NCBI GenBank assembly: GCA_902591495.1 | Contig: CACJAW010000013.1 | Location: 1 to 47,973 of the forward strand | Direction of reading: 5' to 3' | DNA from: an uncultured Pseudohongiella sp. | Lineage (GTDB): Bacteria > Pseudomonadota > Gammaproteobacteria > Pseudomonadales > Pseudohongiellaceae | Length of the DNA: 47,973 nucleotides | In this document: positions 2,399 through 47,973 of the stretch, in pieces | Numbering within the stretch: the stretch's first letter is position 1 | How the letters are laid out: each line of letters begins with the position of its first letter | Notes under the pieces: model-generated | The model's input: the letters and a program-made list of their open reading frames with translations, nothing else | The model's database searches: none | What the model was told of the DNA's origin: nothing | Translations under genes and position numbers: made by a program

Positions 2399-3703
2399 CT
2401 ACATGGAATAACCTTTTTCATCATGATCGGTAATATCGCAACCGACCTGTTCTTGTTCGTCTGTAATTCGTATTCCTGAGGTAAGCGCTGCAACGATCTT
2501 CAGCAATATAAAGGTAACAATTGCTGTGTAAATTCCAGTTGCTAAAATACCAGTTACTTGAACGCCAACCTGCGATCCGATAGTCATCCCCTCAGCTAAA
2601 CCATTACCACTAAAAACTCCGAGATTGTTGGACACTAAAATGCCTGCTAAAAAAGTGCCGACCATCCCGCCAACACCGTGCACGGGAAAAACGTCCAAGG
2701 AATCATCTATTTTCAGATTTTGTTTCAGATAGGTGGTAGCGTAATAACAGACAATGCCTCCTGCTAAACCTACGAGCAACCCACCTGCCGGTCCCACAGA
2801 GCCAGAAGCCGGTGTTATAGTAGCAAGGCCTGCAACCATTCCTGTAATTGCTCCTAAGCCGCTAGGCTTGCCGAATTTGATCCACTCTATAACCATCCAA
2901 GTCAATGCTCCCGTAGCCGCTGAAATATGGGTTACGAAAAGTGCCATGCCAGCTGCCCCGTCTGCTGCAAGCGCCGAACCAGCATTGAAACCAAACCAAC
3001 CTACCCACAGCATCGCAGCCCCTGTAAAGCTCATGGTAAGATTGTGAGGCAAGGTGGAGGATTGTCCGAATTCCTTCCGTTGTCCAATAACCAAAGCCGT
3101 AACTAAGGCTCCCACACCGGCAGTAACGTGAACAACTGTCCCTCCAGCAAAATCTATAAGCCCCATTGATCCGAGCCATCCACCGCCCCAAACCCAGTTT
3201 GCGACAGGAAAGTAAACCAGGAGAGTCCAGAGTATGCTAAAGATAAGCATAGACGAAAACTTTATGCGTTCGACAAACGCACCTACAATCAAAGCGGGGG
3301 TGATAATAGCGAAGGTCATTTGAAAGGCCGCAAAAACCGTCTCGGGAATATCGCCAGACATGGAATTAATATCTATACCACTAAAAAACATGCGGCTAAG
3401 CCCACCCCAATAAGCTGAGTCGGATGGCCCAAATGCGATACTATAACCCACTACCAGCCAAAGAATGGAGATACAAACTGCGATTGCGAAGCATTGCATT
3501 AGGACTGATAAAACATTCTTTGTTCGGACTAATCCCCCATAAAACAGGGATAAACCAGGAAGTGTCATGAATAAAACTAGTGCGGTTGACGTTAAAATCC
3601 AACCGGTATTAGCTCCGTTCAAATCCTGGGCTAGGGAGATTGATGGGACAACTAACAGCGCGAGACTAACAATAAGCTTTGAGTTAAACAGTTCTCTTAT
3701 CAT
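2399..3703 (-). CDS. amtB: Ammonium transporter Amt
   Basis: The 434-residue protein starts with a cleavable-looking signal sequence (about residues 1-25, ending SLAQD), which is usual for proteobacterial Amt proteins, and then shows eleven hydrophobic segments. Family marks include the LPGLSLFYGGLVRTKNVLS region of the first helices, GGTVVHVTAG and VFPVHGVGGMVGT carrying the twin pore histidines, and a cytoplasmic C-terminal tail for P-II docking. It conducts ammonium across the inner membrane as a trimer. It lies 14 bases downstream of glnK, the standard pairing in which GlnK plugs Amt when nitrogen is abundant. Confidence 0.97.
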   Translation of the reverse strand: MIRELFNSKLIVSLALLVVPSISLAQDLNGANTGWILTSTALVLFMTLPGLSLFYGGLVRTKNVLSVLMQCFAIAVCISILWLVVGYSIAFGPSDSAYWGGLSRMFFSGIDINSMSGDIPETVFAAFQMTFAIITPALIVGAFVERIKFSSMLIFSILWTLLVYFPVANWVWGGGWLGSMGLIDFAGGTVVHVTAGVGALVTALVIGQRKEFGQSSTLPHNLTMSFTGAAMLWVGWFGFNAGSALAADGAAGMALFVTHISAATGALTWMVIEWIKFGKPSGLGAITGMVAGLATITPASGSVGPAGGLLVGLAGGIVCYYATTYLKQNLKIDDSLDVFPVHGVGGMVGTFLAGILVSNNLGVFSGNGLAEGMTIGSQVGVQVTGILATGIYTAIVTFILLKIVAALTSGIRITDEQEQVGCDITDHDEKGYSM

Positions 3704-3717
3704 TTCTATTTTTCCTT

Positions 3718-4071
<354 letters not shown>

Positions 4072-43237: not shown

Positions 43238-44758
43238 ATGAAAACCTTAATTATAAAAACAATAAAGACATTGTTAAAAACTTACATTGAGTATTCTTTG
43301 AAATGCGTCTGCATGGCGACTATAGCTTTTAGTACTTCAATCTTGGGAGCTCAGACAACCGAATCTATCCAATCACCGACATTTTCAAACGAAGTGGTGA
43401 GAGTGTTGCAGGAAAAATGTCAACGCTGTCATCAGCCTGGAGGTATAGGCCCCATGCCGCTAGAGACCTATGAGCAGGCAAGGGCATGGGCGCCTAGAAT
43501 TAAAGAAAATGTGCGCCGTCGCATAATGCCTCCTTGGCATTTAGATCCGACAATCGGTATACAAGAGTACAAGAATGATTTTTCGTTAAGTGAAGAACAG
43601 ATTGAAATTTTAGTTGATTGGGTCGACAACGGTACTCCTGAGGGTGATTCTTCGAATATACCCCCACCAGTTGACTGGCCAAATTGGCTAGAATGGGAGC
43701 TAGAGCCAGATTTAGGAGAGCCGGATATGGTCTTTGAATCTGGACCAATTGCGGTGCGAGCCGAGGGTGGTGATTTTTGGCCATCAATAGACGTCGAGTG
43801 GCCGGCTTTAGAAAAACCAAAGTATTTAAAGGCTGCAGAAATCCGGAATACTATTCAAGGCCGGGGGGCGTTGCATCATAATAATATTCGGTTGGATTTA
43901 GAAGAAGGCCCTTCAGGTCGAGTGGTTGGCGCTGGCGCAGGAAAGCGATGGGATTATTTTGGAGAGGATACAGGCATCTTGTTCGATGTTGGTCCAGGTG
44001 TGGTTAATTTTGGGGCACATTATTTCCCGATAGGCGTGGAGTTCGAGGATAATATTGAAGTCGCCTTTTGGTTTCACCCTGACGATCAGCCTCCTGAGAC
44101 AGTAGCCAGCGTTGAGATCCACCATCTAATCGACCAATTTGATCCTGGACAACCGCGAGCTCGAGATATATTGATTCCGCCTCATGGGACACAGACGATG
44201 TACCGAACATGGGTGTTGGACGAGCCAGTTATGCTTAACAGCTATCGCGGGCACATGCATTTGCACGGTATTGCTATGTCAATTGAGGTGATTTGGCCAG
44301 GAAGGGTGAGGGACTATTATGGCCCGGGAGCGAATCGCCGTGATGTGATTGCATCTATTAATAACTACAATCATAACTGGCAGACCAGTTTTGTGTTCGC
44401 AGACGATGCTAGACCGATTTTGCCTGCAGGCACAGCAATAGTAATGCGCACACATTTTGACAATACCGAAAACAATCCTCTTTCTATTGACCCGGATCAA
44501 TGGGTTGTCTTTGGAGGGAGAAGCGTGGACGCGATGTCCCACTTCCATGTGAGTGTTACTTATCTAGAGGAACAGGAGTATGACAACCTTTTGGATGCTC
44601 GTTTGGAACAGCTCTCTTCGCGCAGGGATAAAAATGGCAACTATGGCACAGCTCTGTTGGCAATTCATCCTGATGAAAGGGCAAGACTCGATTCCGGAAC
44701 ACCCGGAGTTTCGATTTCGGAGCGCTCAACTGGGACCTCTCAATACTCTCAAAGGTAG
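43238..44758 (+). CDS. Exported heme c protein with copper type II monooxygenase-like domain
   Basis: A 506-residue protein with a basic N-terminus and hydrophobic stretch (about 22-38) as probable export signal. Cytochrome c part: CQRCH at 61-65 binds one heme, with MPPWH as the probable distal Met region (about 97-101). From about residue 150 the sequence resembles the PHM/dopamine beta-monooxygenase fold: His213-His214 in GALHHNN, GAHYFPIG, RGHMHLHG (His339, His341, His343), NYNHNWQ and MRTHFDNTENNP. Copper sites are thus possible; an oxidative enzyme fed by the heme is a sensible reading. MHLHG replaces the usual MHYRG. The substrate is unknown. Confidence 0.72.
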   Translation: MKTLIIKTIKTLLKTYIEYSLKCVCMATIAFSTSILGAQTTESIQSPTFSNEVVRVLQEKCQRCHQPGGIGPMPLETYEQARAWAPRIKENVRRRIMPPWHLDPTIGIQEYKNDFSLSEEQIEILVDWVDNGTPEGDSSNIPPPVDWPNWLEWELEPDLGEPDMVFESGPIAVRAEGGDFWPSIDVEWPALEKPKYLKAAEIRNTIQGRGALHHNNIRLDLEEGPSGRVVGAGAGKRWDYFGEDTGILFDVGPGVVNFGAHYFPIGVEFEDNIEVAFWFHPDDQPPETVASVEIHHLIDQFDPGQPRARDILIPPHGTQTMYRTWVLDEPVMLNSYRGHMHLHGIAMSIEVIWPGRVRDYYGPGANRRDVIASINNYNHNWQTSFVFADDARPILPAGTAIVMRTHFDNTENNPLSIDPDQWVVFGGRSVDAMSHFHVSVTYLEEQEYDNLLDARLEQLSSRRDKNGNYGTALLAIHPDERARLDSGTPGVSISERSTGTSQYSQR

Positions 44759-44906: not shown

Positions 44907-46691
44907 ATGGCAAAACGAAATTCGATTCGGTTTGGGGACTACATACAGGCAATGTCTGTGGATTCGCAGAGGGTTCCATTTTTGGAGTTGATGCCCGAGC
45001 CTTTGTTTGATCGGCATGGTAACGAACATCCGCAACCAGTGCCCAAGATGAAGTTGGGTGGTGGTGATGTTGTCAAACTTCTTCAGCCTTATTTTTCTAC
45101 CCGTTTCATGGATCAGGCCAGAGCTGTTGTGCCGCTTGCTGCCTATCTTGCTCTTTTCCAGTACATTGTCCTGCAAACCCCCGTCATCGATGCCGCGATT
45201 ATTGCGGGTGGATTACTGGCAGTGATGGTTGGGTTGATGATGTTCATGGAAGGCTTGAAGCTTGGACTGATGCCATTCGGTGAGGTCATCGGGAACACGT
45301 TACCCAGGAAGCTGCCGCTAGCTGGTGTTCTTACAATAGCTTTCTTACTTGGGATTGGGGTTACCTTTGCAGAACCCGCGATAGGAGCACTTCAGGTTGC
45401 GGGTTCGCTTGTGGATCCTGTGCAGGCGCCTTATCTGTTTACTCTCCTTAACGACCGGTCTGGCACGACTGTTTTGCTCGTTGGTTTGGGAGTTGGTCTA
45501 GCGGCGGTTTTAGGAACGGTTCGATTTTTACGAGGTTGGAGCCTCAAGCCTCTGATTTTCATTACTTTGACTCCTACGTTGATTCTCAGTGTAATTGCGT
45601 TTTTCAATGAAGACCTGACAACGATAGTTGGACTTGCCTGGGATTGTGGTGCTGTGACTACAGGTCCAGTGACAGTGCCTCTTGTTCTCGCACTCGGGAT
45701 AGGTGTAGCCTCAGCGGCAGGTAAGGGGGCAGATTCCTCTTTATCTGGCTTCGGGATAGTGACTCTAGCTTCAGTATTCCCTATTTTGGGCGTGCTTTGC
45801 CTAAGTTTTTACACTGCATACACCGTGCCTGCTGAAGAAATTATTGCGCGTGCGGCAGAGATAAGATTGGCCGCAGAGGCGGCGGCGAGTCAGCCAAATT
45901 GGTTCGAAGTAACACCATGGACAGAAGTTATTTTGGGAGTTCGGGCAATTGTTCCTCTAGTGATTTTCTTAGCAATTATTCTGTTTATCGTCTTGCGGGA
46001 GAAAATGAAAAACGCGTTTATCACAAACTACGGGATCATTCTGGCGGTTCTGGGAATGTGCATTTTTAATATAGGGTTGACATACGGTCTTGCAAAACTC
46101 GGAGATCAATCTGGCGGTTTAATTGCTGGTGCCTTCGAATCTATCGATACAATAGCCGCGAGTCCGCTCTATAGTTTTTCTGTAGGTGTGGGAATTGCGG
46201 CATTATTCGCATGGGTATTAGGGTTTGGATCTACACTCGCCGAGCCGGCTCTAAACGCACTCGGGATGACTGTTCAAAATTTGACGAACGGTGCATTTAA
46301 GAAGTCAATGTTAATGGGAGCAGTTGCATTTGGTGTAGCTATTGGCATTATGTTGGGCGTTTTAAAACTGATCTTTGATTTTCATATCATGTATATCTTA
46401 ATTCCCGGTTATACGATTGGATTAATTTTAACGCTGTTATCAACAGAAGAATTCGTCAATGTTGGATGGGATTCGGCTGGTGTTACTACTGGTCCGGTCA
46501 CAGTGCCACTTGTCCTGGCAATGGGTCTCGGATTTGGTAATGCCCTAGGATCAGTAGAGGGTTTTGGCATTTTGGCAGCAGCATCAATATGCCCAATCGT
46601 GGCCGTACTAACCTTAGGTTTATATGTTCAGTTTAAAGTAAAGCGGGAAGAGCGAAGACTGGCGCTTGCCGAAGAAGGAGGAACTGCATGA
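44907..46691 (+). CDS. DUF1538 membrane protein, internally duplicated
   Basis: A 594-residue polytopic protein (about 14 helices) after a soluble N-terminal tail of about 70 residues. It contains two copies of one unit: TTGPVTVPLVLALGIG near 250 and TTGPVTVPLVLAMGLG near 526, each preceded by Trp-Asp (Trp245 and Trp521, 276 residues apart), and TFAEPAIGAL against TLAEPALNAL. Such inverted or direct doubling is typical of secondary carriers and channels. The family has no settled function. Two P-II-like genes follow, the first overlapping by four bases, suggesting that transport is gated by P-II-type sensors. Confidence 0.88.
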   Translation: MAKRNSIRFGDYIQAMSVDSQRVPFLELMPEPLFDRHGNEHPQPVPKMKLGGGDVVKLLQPYFSTRFMDQARAVVPLAAYLALFQYIVLQTPVIDAAIIAGGLLAVMVGLMMFMEGLKLGLMPFGEVIGNTLPRKLPLAGVLTIAFLLGIGVTFAEPAIGALQVAGSLVDPVQAPYLFTLLNDRSGTTVLLVGLGVGLAAVLGTVRFLRGWSLKPLIFITLTPTLILSVIAFFNEDLTTIVGLAWDCGAVTTGPVTVPLVLALGIGVASAAGKGADSSLSGFGIVTLASVFPILGVLCLSFYTAYTVPAEEIIARAAEIRLAAEAAASQPNWFEVTPWTEVILGVRAIVPLVIFLAIILFIVLREKMKNAFITNYGIILAVLGMCIFNIGLTYGLAKLGDQSGGLIAGAFESIDTIAASPLYSFSVGVGIAALFAWVLGFGSTLAEPALNALGMTVQNLTNGAFKKSMLMGAVAFGVAIGIMLGVLKLIFDFHIMYILIPGYTIGLILTLLSTEEFVNVGWDSAGVTTGPVTVPLVLAMGLGFGNALGSVEGFGILAAASICPIVAVLTLGLYVQFKVKREERRLALAEEGGTA

Positions 46692-47044
46692 AACGTTCAT
46701 TTACTACCTTAACAGATGCGACGCTAATTACTGCCGTAGTCCAGAGTGGTTATGGCGAGATAATAACAAACGCTCTCCTTGATGTTGGCATCGAGGGATC
46801 AACGATTCATGCAGCTATGGGAGTTGGTATCCGCGAGCGGTTAGGCGCTCTTGGCGTTGCTGTAGACGCTGAACGAGAGGTAGTAAGCGTTATGGTGTCA
46901 AGTGATGAAGTAGATCGAGTTTTCGAAAGGATTTTTTTAGCGGGAAAGCTTGATATTCCAGGCTCAGGTTTCATGTATGCAACACCTTTATTGCAGGCTG
47001 CGACTTACGTGCCACCATCAATTGTATCTAAATACGTCGGGTAA
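46688..47044 (+). CDS. P-II-like protein, first of two
   Basis: A 118-residue protein of the GlnB ferredoxin-like fold. ATLITAVVQSGYGEIITNAL fits beta-1/alpha-1 and DVGIEGSTI beta-2; the T-loop is shortened to a stretch near IRERLGALG with no uridylylation Tyr; the end of the fold, LAGKLDIPGSGFMYATPL, replaces the [12 protein letters not shown]-loop. So the nucleotide site is altered from GlnK at 3718-4056. It overlaps the DUF1538 gene by ATGA. Probably a private sensor for that protein; its ligand is unknown. Confidence 0.78.
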   Translation: MKRSFTTLTDATLITAVVQSGYGEIITNALLDVGIEGSTIHAAMGVGIRERLGALGVAVDAEREVVSVMVSSDEVDRVFERIFLAGKLDIPGSGFMYATPLLQAATYVPPSIVSKYVG

Positions 47045-47049
47045 TTATC

Positions 47050-47436
47050 ATGCCTCTACCAGTATTAAAACCAGATCTCGGTGAGCACTATCTTGACTAT
47101 ACATGGTTAATATCTGGCGTACTCTATGAAGGTGGGACAGATTTATTGATTCCGGAATTGATGAAAAAAGGGATCAACGAAGTCTATTTTTATAATGTGG
47201 CGGGGTCCCCTATAGGGAGGAGATCTGTTGCAGGGGTCGCTGATTCTTTCGATGTTGAGCAGTTTCATTTAGTAGTTTCGGCGGACCAAGCTGACAACAT
47301 ATTTGATTATATATACCGTTTCTGCAACTTATCGGAGCCGAACAAAGGATTTATCAATATAAGTAAATTGTTCCGCTCCACAGGACTTGATCTTCCTGAT
47401 TTAAATGACGCTACAACTGAAGAAACTACCGACTAA
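47050..47436 (+). CDS. P-II-like protein, second of two
   Basis: A 128-residue protein that aligns by pattern with the previous one: WLISGVLYEGGTDLLIPELMKKGIN (in part) as beta-1/alpha-1, EQFHLVVSADQADNIFDYIY as beta-3/alpha-2, and EPNKGFINISKLFRS as the last strands. It lacks both a canonical T-loop and B-loop. It lies five bases after the first, so the pair may form a mixed trimer. An acidic tail (NDATTEETTD) ends it. It is followed after 15 bases by a helical protein gene. Confidence 0.72.
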   Translation: MPLPVLKPDLGEHYLDYTWLISGVLYEGGTDLLIPELMKKGINEVYFYNVAGSPIGRRSVAGVADSFDVEQFHLVVSADQADNIFDYIYRFCNLSEPNKGFINISKLFRSTGLDLPDLNDATTEETTD

Positions 47437-47451
47437 TCAGCAGGTGACCTA

Positions 47452-47973
47452 ATGGCTAACGAAACAGATTTAGAACTAGTAGCAGAGAATAAACTTGGTA
47501 TCCAGAAGAACAAGAAGCGAATCTTCGAACTTGAAGCTGGAGTTTCAACTACCTACGCTGAGTTGATGTTGCTTCTAGCAGATATAGGTGAGAACCGCGC
47601 ATTACTTGATAGAAACTTTGCATCTTCCTTTACTGGGAATAGGGCGATAGCGATCGATAATGTTGATGATCTTTTTAATTCCCGTTTGTTAATGATTGAG
47701 TCACTTGAACCGAATACAGAAGTTGAGAAAAATTTTCAAACTATGTTTTCAAACTTGGTTAAGATAGATCAGCTAGAAAACCGAGCGAAGCTTAACGATA
47801 AACTAAGTGAAATCTGTTCAAGAGTGCAGGAAATTAATCCGATGCTTCAAGCTATCAATACGCTGGTTGCCGAAGCAAATGAGGCTGTTGTTGAGCAGGC
47901 TGATGAGATGATCTCTGAAAATGCGGAGTGGGTCGATGGAGCCCTATCGGCGAAGATGGATGCAGCAACCGCT
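47452..47973 (+). CDS. Helical, probably coiled-coil protein (3' end outside the window)
   Basis: An open frame of 174 codons from ATG 47452 (AGGTG just before it) to the window edge, without a stop. The sequence is polar, Glu- and Leu-rich and almost free of Gly, Pro and Cys: MANETDLELVAENKLGIQ, then a heptad-like pattern (NKLGIQKNKKRIFELEAG, IGENRALLDRNF, and later IDQLENRAKLNDKLSEI). No signal peptide or membrane helix. I do not recognise it. As fourth gene of the DUF1538/P-II-like cluster it may be a cytoplasmic adaptor or scaffold. Confidence 0.75.
   Translation, partial: MANETDLELVAENKLGIQKNKKRIFELEAGVSTTYAELMLLLADIGENRALLDRNFASSFTGNRAIAIDNVDDLFNSRLLMIESLEPNTEVEKNFQTMFSNLVKIDQLENRAKLNDKLSEICSRVQEINPMLQAINTLVAEANEAVVEQADEMISENAEWVDGALSAKMDAATA

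Follow-up and report, generated by a model that had tools for sequence, protein, structure and literature searches.

A conserved DUF1538/P-II gene cassette as a candidate P-II-regulated cation/proton antiporter

Introduction

P-II proteins form trimers. In the accessible part of a review (PMC10710835) they are described as acting on ammonium (AmtB/Amt1), nitrate (Nrt), urea (Urt) and bicarbonate (SbtA) transporters, and the accessible part of PMC8352866 pairs the Na+-dependent bicarbonate transporter SbtA with the P-II-like protein SbtB. Members of the membrane protein family DUF1538 have been described separately: UmpA and UmpB of Halomonas zhaodongensis, both DUF1538 proteins, jointly carry out Na+(Li+,K+)/H+ antiport in E. 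coli KNabc according to the portion available of PMC5484666, and neither "PII" nor "P-II" occurs in the main text of that paper. PMC7221264 likewise contains no P-II link, its single "pii" being part of a motif string, papers on cable bacteria that mention UmpAB contain none either, and a search of the full-text literature, with most subscription journals outside its scope, found no report linking DUF1538 or UmpAB to P-II. Here we analyze four genes at the right end of a 47,973-nucleotide stretch of DNA from an uncultured Pseudohongiella sp. (contig CACJAW010000013.1, hereafter the window), which encode a fused double-DUF1538 carrier, two P-II-like proteins that we call P-II a and P-II b, and a helical protein that we call gene 4. 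We find that DUF1538 is accompanied by P-II throughout the loci examined, contig ends excepted, and propose that the cassette probably encodes a P-II-regulated cation/proton antiporter.

The cassette resembles each of the described systems in part. Like UmpAB, which acts as a pair of homologous DUF1538 units, the window carrier contains two such units, the first half matching UmpA and the second UmpB; unlike UmpAB, it is one fused chain, scores below the UmpAB equivalog cut-offs and is followed by P-II genes. With SbtA-SbtB it shares the combination of a secondary carrier and a non-canonical P-II-like protein in one operon, whereas SbtA belongs to another carrier family and has a single, homotrimeric P-II partner, which in some cases bears a CGPxGC motif. 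GlnK-AmtB also couples a P-II gene to a membrane protein gene, but the cassette lacks both an Amt and the [10 protein letters not shown]-loop stretch, and it encodes two differing P-II proteins instead of one, P-II a having lost most of the canonical ligand residues. In umpA-umpB-P-II operons with a split carrier, the same carrier family has a P-II neighbor; these differ in having two carrier genes, one P-II and often a gene for a pair of CBS domains, with no second P-II or gene 4 seen.

Results

P-II-like frames accompany DUF1538

The four genes lie in tight succession on the plus strand at 44907-47973 in the list of open reading frames (ORFs; Table 1). The window ends where its contig (C13, 47973 bases) ends, and the frame of gene 4 is therefore truncated. 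Within a set of 58 related genomes, 20 matched DUF1538, 19 of them over the cut-off and one (G013) through a weak stretch with stops. The 19 loci besides the window, taken from 18 other related genomes (one has two), all carry a P-II-like frame after DUF1538, and five of these loci also carry gene 4. When 398 genomes were drawn across the phylum, 126 matched DUF1538; the 30 best-scoring loci, which are not a random sample, were examined, and in all 30 the DUF1538 pair is adjoined by a P-II-like frame.

A scan of a species-genome collection returned 409 relatives, the best 80 of which (the scan loci) were examined. The hidden Markov models that detected P-II a, P-II b and gene 4 derive from sequences closely related to the window, and E-values obtained on small ORF sets cannot be compared with those of a database search. 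A relative of P-II a comes next after DUF1538 in 79/80 scan loci, the 80th ending within DUF1538, and a second P-II-like frame follows in 76, the remaining four being contig ends. Six of these 76 second frames (L150, L151, L153, L155-L157) were found by position and score 12-15 bits only. Spacing is tight throughout: the gap is at most 40 bases in 75/79 loci between DUF1538 and P-II a (an overlap of 4 in 44), in 67/70 between P-II a and P-II b, and in 33/37 between P-II b and gene 4. This conservation of order and spacing across many genomes rules out chance adjacency. The association also holds when the P-II proteins are taken as the starting point. The 21 best matches to the P-II a profile in the 58 genomes all adjoin DUF1538 and outrank every P-II match elsewhere, and such a match is present in all 19 genomes whose DUF1538 score exceeds the cut-off; the P-II b profile finds matches in 7 of the 58 genomes, exclusively cassette P-II frames. 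Nine plasmid records matched, and in all five annotated ones viewed, three of them from Clostridia, a P-II gene stands directly after DUF1538. The adjacency is visible in public annotation.

The linkage thus holds at every examined locus, split or fused, contig ends excepted. The regularity of the pairing in the genomes examined makes it likely that the P-II proteins control the carrier.

The carrier resembles a fusion of UmpA and UmpB

Pfam DUF1538 (PF07556) matches two stretches of the carrier (E 3.3e-98; 327.6 bits against a gathering cut-off of 22.6), and the NCBIfam models place UmpA on residues 66-300 (208.6 bits) and UmpB on residues 345-582 (159.4 bits). An AlphaFold model of the protein has a predicted local distance difference test score (pLDDT) of 81.8 and a predicted template modeling score (pTM) of 0.81. 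The only characterized DUF1538 members found are cation/H+ antiporters, and the carrier is likely, as judged from its sequence, to be a monovalent cation/H+ antiporter too, a single-chain fusion of UmpA and UmpB with the same kind of substrate as UmpAB. In 28 of the 30 phylum loci the carrier is split into umpA and umpB, and one P-II is seen. DUF1538 matches at 26-34% identity also occur in four unannotated records of a phage collection.

P-II a and P-II b are divergent P-II proteins

P-II a (P0002) narrowly exceeds the cut-off of Pfam P-II (PF00543; 26.2 bits against 25), and a profile of its family together with five P-II rows from split operons matches solved P-II proteins, with a best E-value of 1.4e-9. 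P-II b (P0003), which has no match over cut-off in Pfam or NCBIfam, could be placed by profile comparison: its family aligns with that of P-II a in hhalign with a probability of 99.5% (E 4.2e-23, 114 columns), and its best match in the PDB is a P-II protein (E 2.2e-4). Pfam P-II is matched by 8 of 29 members of the P-II b family at E up to 1 (best 2.1e-5), P0003 not being among them. The profile comparison rules out that P-II b is unrelated to P-II.

We take Q39, K58, K90, R101 and R103 to be the canonical GlnB positions for binding Mg-ATP and 2-oxoglutarate. In 28 P-II a rows, Q39 is replaced by R, K90 by F, Y, I or M and R103 by V or I in every case; R101 gives way to T in 27 rows and to A in one, and K58 stays basic in all 28. 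This mapping covers P-II a only, its columns being set by HMMER alignment to 3o8w, which ends at chain residue 100, with R101 and R103 reached by gapless extension. Most canonical ligand residues therefore appear lost in P-II a, and the usual Mg-ATP/2-oxoglutarate binding is not expected for it, given the changes at Q39, K90, R101 and R103. The stretch TELYRGAEY, whose Y51 is presumably the uridylylation site, is absent from the sequences of both P-II a and P-II b. It is retained in the GlnK encoded elsewhere in the window (3718-4056), whose [10 protein letters not shown]-loop is intact; the same genome encodes another canonical P-II elsewhere (G000:C6:51666-51983). Also absent from the two cassette proteins is the C-terminal CGPxGC motif, P-II a having no Cys and P-II b one.

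As to the ligand, the diadenylate cyclase domain DAC (PF02457) was found in none of the 58 related genomes, the window's own (66% complete) included, while the control was positive in 11/14. This makes cyclic di-AMP (c-di-AMP) an unlikely ligand. Pairs of CBS domains bind adenosine-type ligands. A CBS-pair frame is visible within 1500 bases on either side in 23/30 phylum loci (21 of the 28 split ones), which suggests, from what is known of that domain family, an adenosine- or adenylate-type signal.

P-II modules are fused in some genomes

In three clostridial plasmid records, a fused DUF1538 is followed by one protein of 222-224 residues in which profiles recognize two P-II modules (Table 1). 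Pfam detects both modules in L202 and one each in L200 and L203, the first being weak in L203. In two genomes, G012 and G039, a fused DUF1538 is accompanied by a single chain of 403-420 residues with three P-II-like modules, the third of which is the weakest (hhalign probability 92.8% with the P-II a family and 8% with the P-II b family). Three modules per chain would fit the P-II trimer, and these proteins are possibly covalent P-II pseudo-trimers. Of the two differing fused DUF1538 loci in G012, L038 has two P-II genes and L039 has the three-module chain. Modules that are fused in some genomes and separate in others often bind each other, and since the P-II modules that are separate in the window are fused elsewhere, we infer a hetero-P-II particle, whose P-II units probably bind one another.

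Gene 4 is a conserved, lineage-specific helical protein

Full-length gene 4 has 249-251 residues in five close homologs. In a model of the L081 homolog, helices span residues 4-83, 90-170 and 174-250 (pLDDT 93.9; pTM 0.74). The window protein (P0004), L040 and L036 have no Pfam or NCBIfam match over cut-off, L036 having none in NCBIfam at E 0.01; the best Pfam E-value among 15 family members is 0.0042, and the best PDB match by sequence reaches only 0.024. Together with the structure search described below, these results rule out a known family. A spurious frame is ruled out by the full-length homologs and by purifying selection: six comparisons gave a ratio of nonsynonymous to synonymous change (pN/pS) of about 0.16-0.38, pS being close to saturation. 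In the wider family, 14 columns are invariant or nearly so, and nine of these are Asn.

Gene 4 is present in 37/38 scan loci of one clade, the sole miss (L109) ending 152 bases after P-II b, and in 0/42 scan loci outside it, 34 of which have at least 700 bases after the last P-II. In a quick LG+G4 tree of 83 DUF1538 proteins (L145 omitted, eight rows without a gene 4 state uncounted), the gene 4 rows all fall on one side of a single branch with a support of 100 in the Shimodaira-Hasegawa-like approximate likelihood ratio test (SH-aLRT). Only one change is required, and on the tree built gene 4 was gained once in the lineage. The records in this clade are named as Gammaproteobacteria, Alphaproteobacteria (SAR116, Planktomarina, IMCC14465, Kordiimonadaceae) and Betaproteobacteria. 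The group L081-L108 mixes Gamma- and Alphaproteobacteria with carriers 84-99% identical to the window carrier, which makes transfer between classes likely. A scan of viral contigs found no relative of gene 4, which speaks against phage carriage.

Relatives of gene 4 were sought more widely. At E<=0.01 its profile hits 14 of 390 genomes of the order, of which four have it in a cassette, six have stand-alone relatives and four give weak matches. Among the 58 related genomes the wider profile has eight matches: six in a cassette, a weak one in G021, and one in G002 (E 5.3e-54), where DUF1538 has no match. Across the 398 phylum genomes the only strong match is in the window's own genome, the others being partial and weak. 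The stand-alone relatives (L074-L080) have a common core, with IEENR, AAFMGNRQLAN and NTDDI in most of them. These relatives suggest that gene 4 was recruited from a small family that has no name yet.

An earlier note on this DNA, made from the letters alone, had read the locus as four tightly packed genes for a duplicated DUF1538 membrane protein, two non-canonical P-II-like proteins and a helical frame, with an Amt-GlnK pair in the same window. The frames, overlap and gaps are as it claimed (Table 1), and the family searches agree on the two DUF1538 stretches, and on P-II a (by Pfam) and P-II b (by profile comparison); the minus-strand pair is present as well. It had further proposed that the carrier and its two private, degenerate P-II proteins form a unit, with the fourth gene as a new component, and had counted rare co-occurrence as evidence to the contrary; the counts above for the three-gene unit and, within its clade, for gene 4 bear the proposal out. 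Its description of the system as undescribed stands for the P-II partner, which was not found in print, but not for the membrane family, already characterized as UmpAB in the accessible part of PMC5484666. Nor is the P-II link peculiar to the duplicated, fused form of DUF1538, as P-II is seen at each uncut DUF1538 locus examined, split or fused.

Neighboring genes

By phmmer, 10/80 scan loci have near the cassette a Na_H_Exchanger protein that carries a cyclic-nucleotide-binding domain at its C terminus, or a relative of such a protein (Pfam was run on three of the ten); all ten are among the 43 scan loci without gene 4. In a betaproteobacterial cassette (L111), a tandem pair of Ion_trans proteins and a ClC protein come directly after gene 4; L115 has frames that resemble these by appearance. 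Such ion-transport neighbors fit a role in cation homeostasis. No neighbor recurs in most loci of either type when the three flanking genes on each side are compared across the 80 scan loci. Directly upstream of the window cassette is a gene for a 506-residue protein with a CxxCH motif (43238-44758). A resembling frame is upstream in L081, and none was seen directly upstream in L082, L091 or L093. The membrane protein of the canonical P-II pair in the window is one that we take, from its sequence, to be amtB.

Table 1 Coordinates of the cassette genes and related features
Feature	Location	Strand	Remarks
Fused double-DUF1538 membrane protein	window 44907..46691	+	594 residues; UmpA-like half, then UmpB-like half
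P-II a	window 46688..47044	+	118 residues; start overlaps carrier stop as ATGA
P-II b	window 47050..47436	+	128 residues; five bases after P-II a; degenerate
Gene 4, 5' part	window 47452..47973	+	174 of ~251 residues; 15 bases after P-II b; helical
Two-module P-II proteins	L200:3892-4560; L202:3892-4560; L203:4655-5329		annotated as single P-II regulators
Three-module P-II chain	L039:7673-8884	-	403 residues
Three-module P-II chain	L042:8399-9661	-	420 residues
Canonical glnK-amtB pair	window 2399-4056	-	named by sequence; P-II part also by a search
Na_H_Exchanger with cyclic-nucleotide-binding domain	L122:3304-5784	-	nine further loci with such a protein or a relative
Tandem Ion_trans pair and ClC protein	L111:9435-12811		directly after gene 4, betaproteobacterial cassette

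Discussion

We propose that the cassette probably encodes a cation/proton antiporter that is set by a dedicated hetero-P-II regulator, with gene 4 as a scaffold added later. In this model P-II a and P-II b would together form a hetero-P-II particle. Docked on the carrier from the cytoplasmic side, the particle would lock or release the antiporter according to a cytosolic signal, by analogy with SbtB on SbtA and GlnK on AmtB, which serve as precedents for a docking switch in the accessible parts of PMC8352866 and PMC10710835, respectively. The product of gene 4, modeled as a long three-helix rod, would probably scaffold or tether the antiporter/P-II complex. We rate the cassette as a putative P-II-gated transporter of a type already known in kind, in which the unnamed fourth component and DUF1538 as a P-II partner appear to be new.

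Several results weigh against this model. In the portion available of PMC5484666, UmpAB is reported as a heterodimer and umpA and umpB alone give antiport in E. coli, so P-II is unnecessary for basal antiport, although activity without P-II is also what would be expected if P-II is a regulator; our linkage counts do not include this characterized H. zhaodongensis umpAB locus. The carrier does not reach the UmpAB equivalog cut-offs (NF041627/NF041628), its halves scoring 208.6 of 490 and 159.4 of 500 bits, and its substrate may thus differ from that of UmpAB. Split relatives (L043 and L045) likewise stay below these cut-offs, at 337-380 bits for the matching halves. Foldseek found no fold match in the PDB at E<=0.001 for the model of the carrier or for that of gene 4 (L081), and we accordingly claim no transporter superfamily for DUF1538. 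Seven stand-alone relatives of gene 4 exist in six genomes (E<=1.2e-17), with no DUF1538 or P-II near them in the stretches fetched (that of L074 begins ~600 bases before the gene). Two alphaproteobacterial split plasmid operons have no annotated CBS gene, and the exchanger neighbor occurs in none of the 37 gene 4 loci.

Some of these observations would suit an alternative for gene 4, namely that it encodes an independent helical protein and is carried along as a passenger when the three-gene unit is transferred. Its stand-alone relatives and its absence from the 42 scan loci outside the clade, 34 of them with room for it, are what a passenger would lead one to expect. However, within the clade only a contig end interrupts its presence, a single change on the tree accounts for its distribution, it lies at most 40 bases from P-II b in 33/37 loci, and it occurs in records named as members of three proteobacterial classes, and so we consider a passenger unlikely. 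For the carrier, the low equivalog scores and the lack of a fold match could also mean that the fused DUF1538 protein carries another substrate, such as bicarbonate, a weak acid or an organic ion, whose transport the P-II pair gates; SbtA, as described in the accessible part of PMC8352866, would be the precedent. Set against this are the cation/H+ antiport of the characterized members, the Na_H_Exchanger, Ion_trans and ClC proteins that adjoin some loci, and the inclusion of DUF1538 among the key pH-adaptation genes tabulated by a machine-learning study (PMC13255231, in the part available), and we regard another substrate as improbable. Slimmer still is the chance that the carrier is a transceptor, sensing flux or membrane energization and binding or releasing the P-II pair so that freed P-II acts on a distant target, for which we take the sequestration of GlnK by AmtB at the membrane to be a precedent: no neighbor recurs in most scan loci and the P-II b profile in the 58 genomes finds cassette frames only, even if individual P-II proteins could have multiple targets according to the accessible part of PMC10710835.

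Returning to the antiporter set by a hetero-P-II regulator, a broader form of the idea can be put forward more tentatively, as a possibility rather than an expectation. DUF1538 antiporters may as a rule be governed by P-II, and in the present lineage the regulator may be an obligate hetero-P-II, with a P-II a that lacks the canonical nucleotide pocket, joined by a three-helix rod in a four-part complex. Such a complex would place sodium and pH homeostasis under a cytosolic signal that is not c-di-AMP. Hetero-P-II particles become a concrete idea through the chains of two and three modules, and gene 4 represents a conserved unnamed protein family found in SAR116 and other groups. The DUF1538 antiporter family is widespread (126 of the 398 phylum genomes drawn), and if the proposed control is correct, P-II signaling would extend beyond nitrogen and carbon to ion and pH homeostasis.

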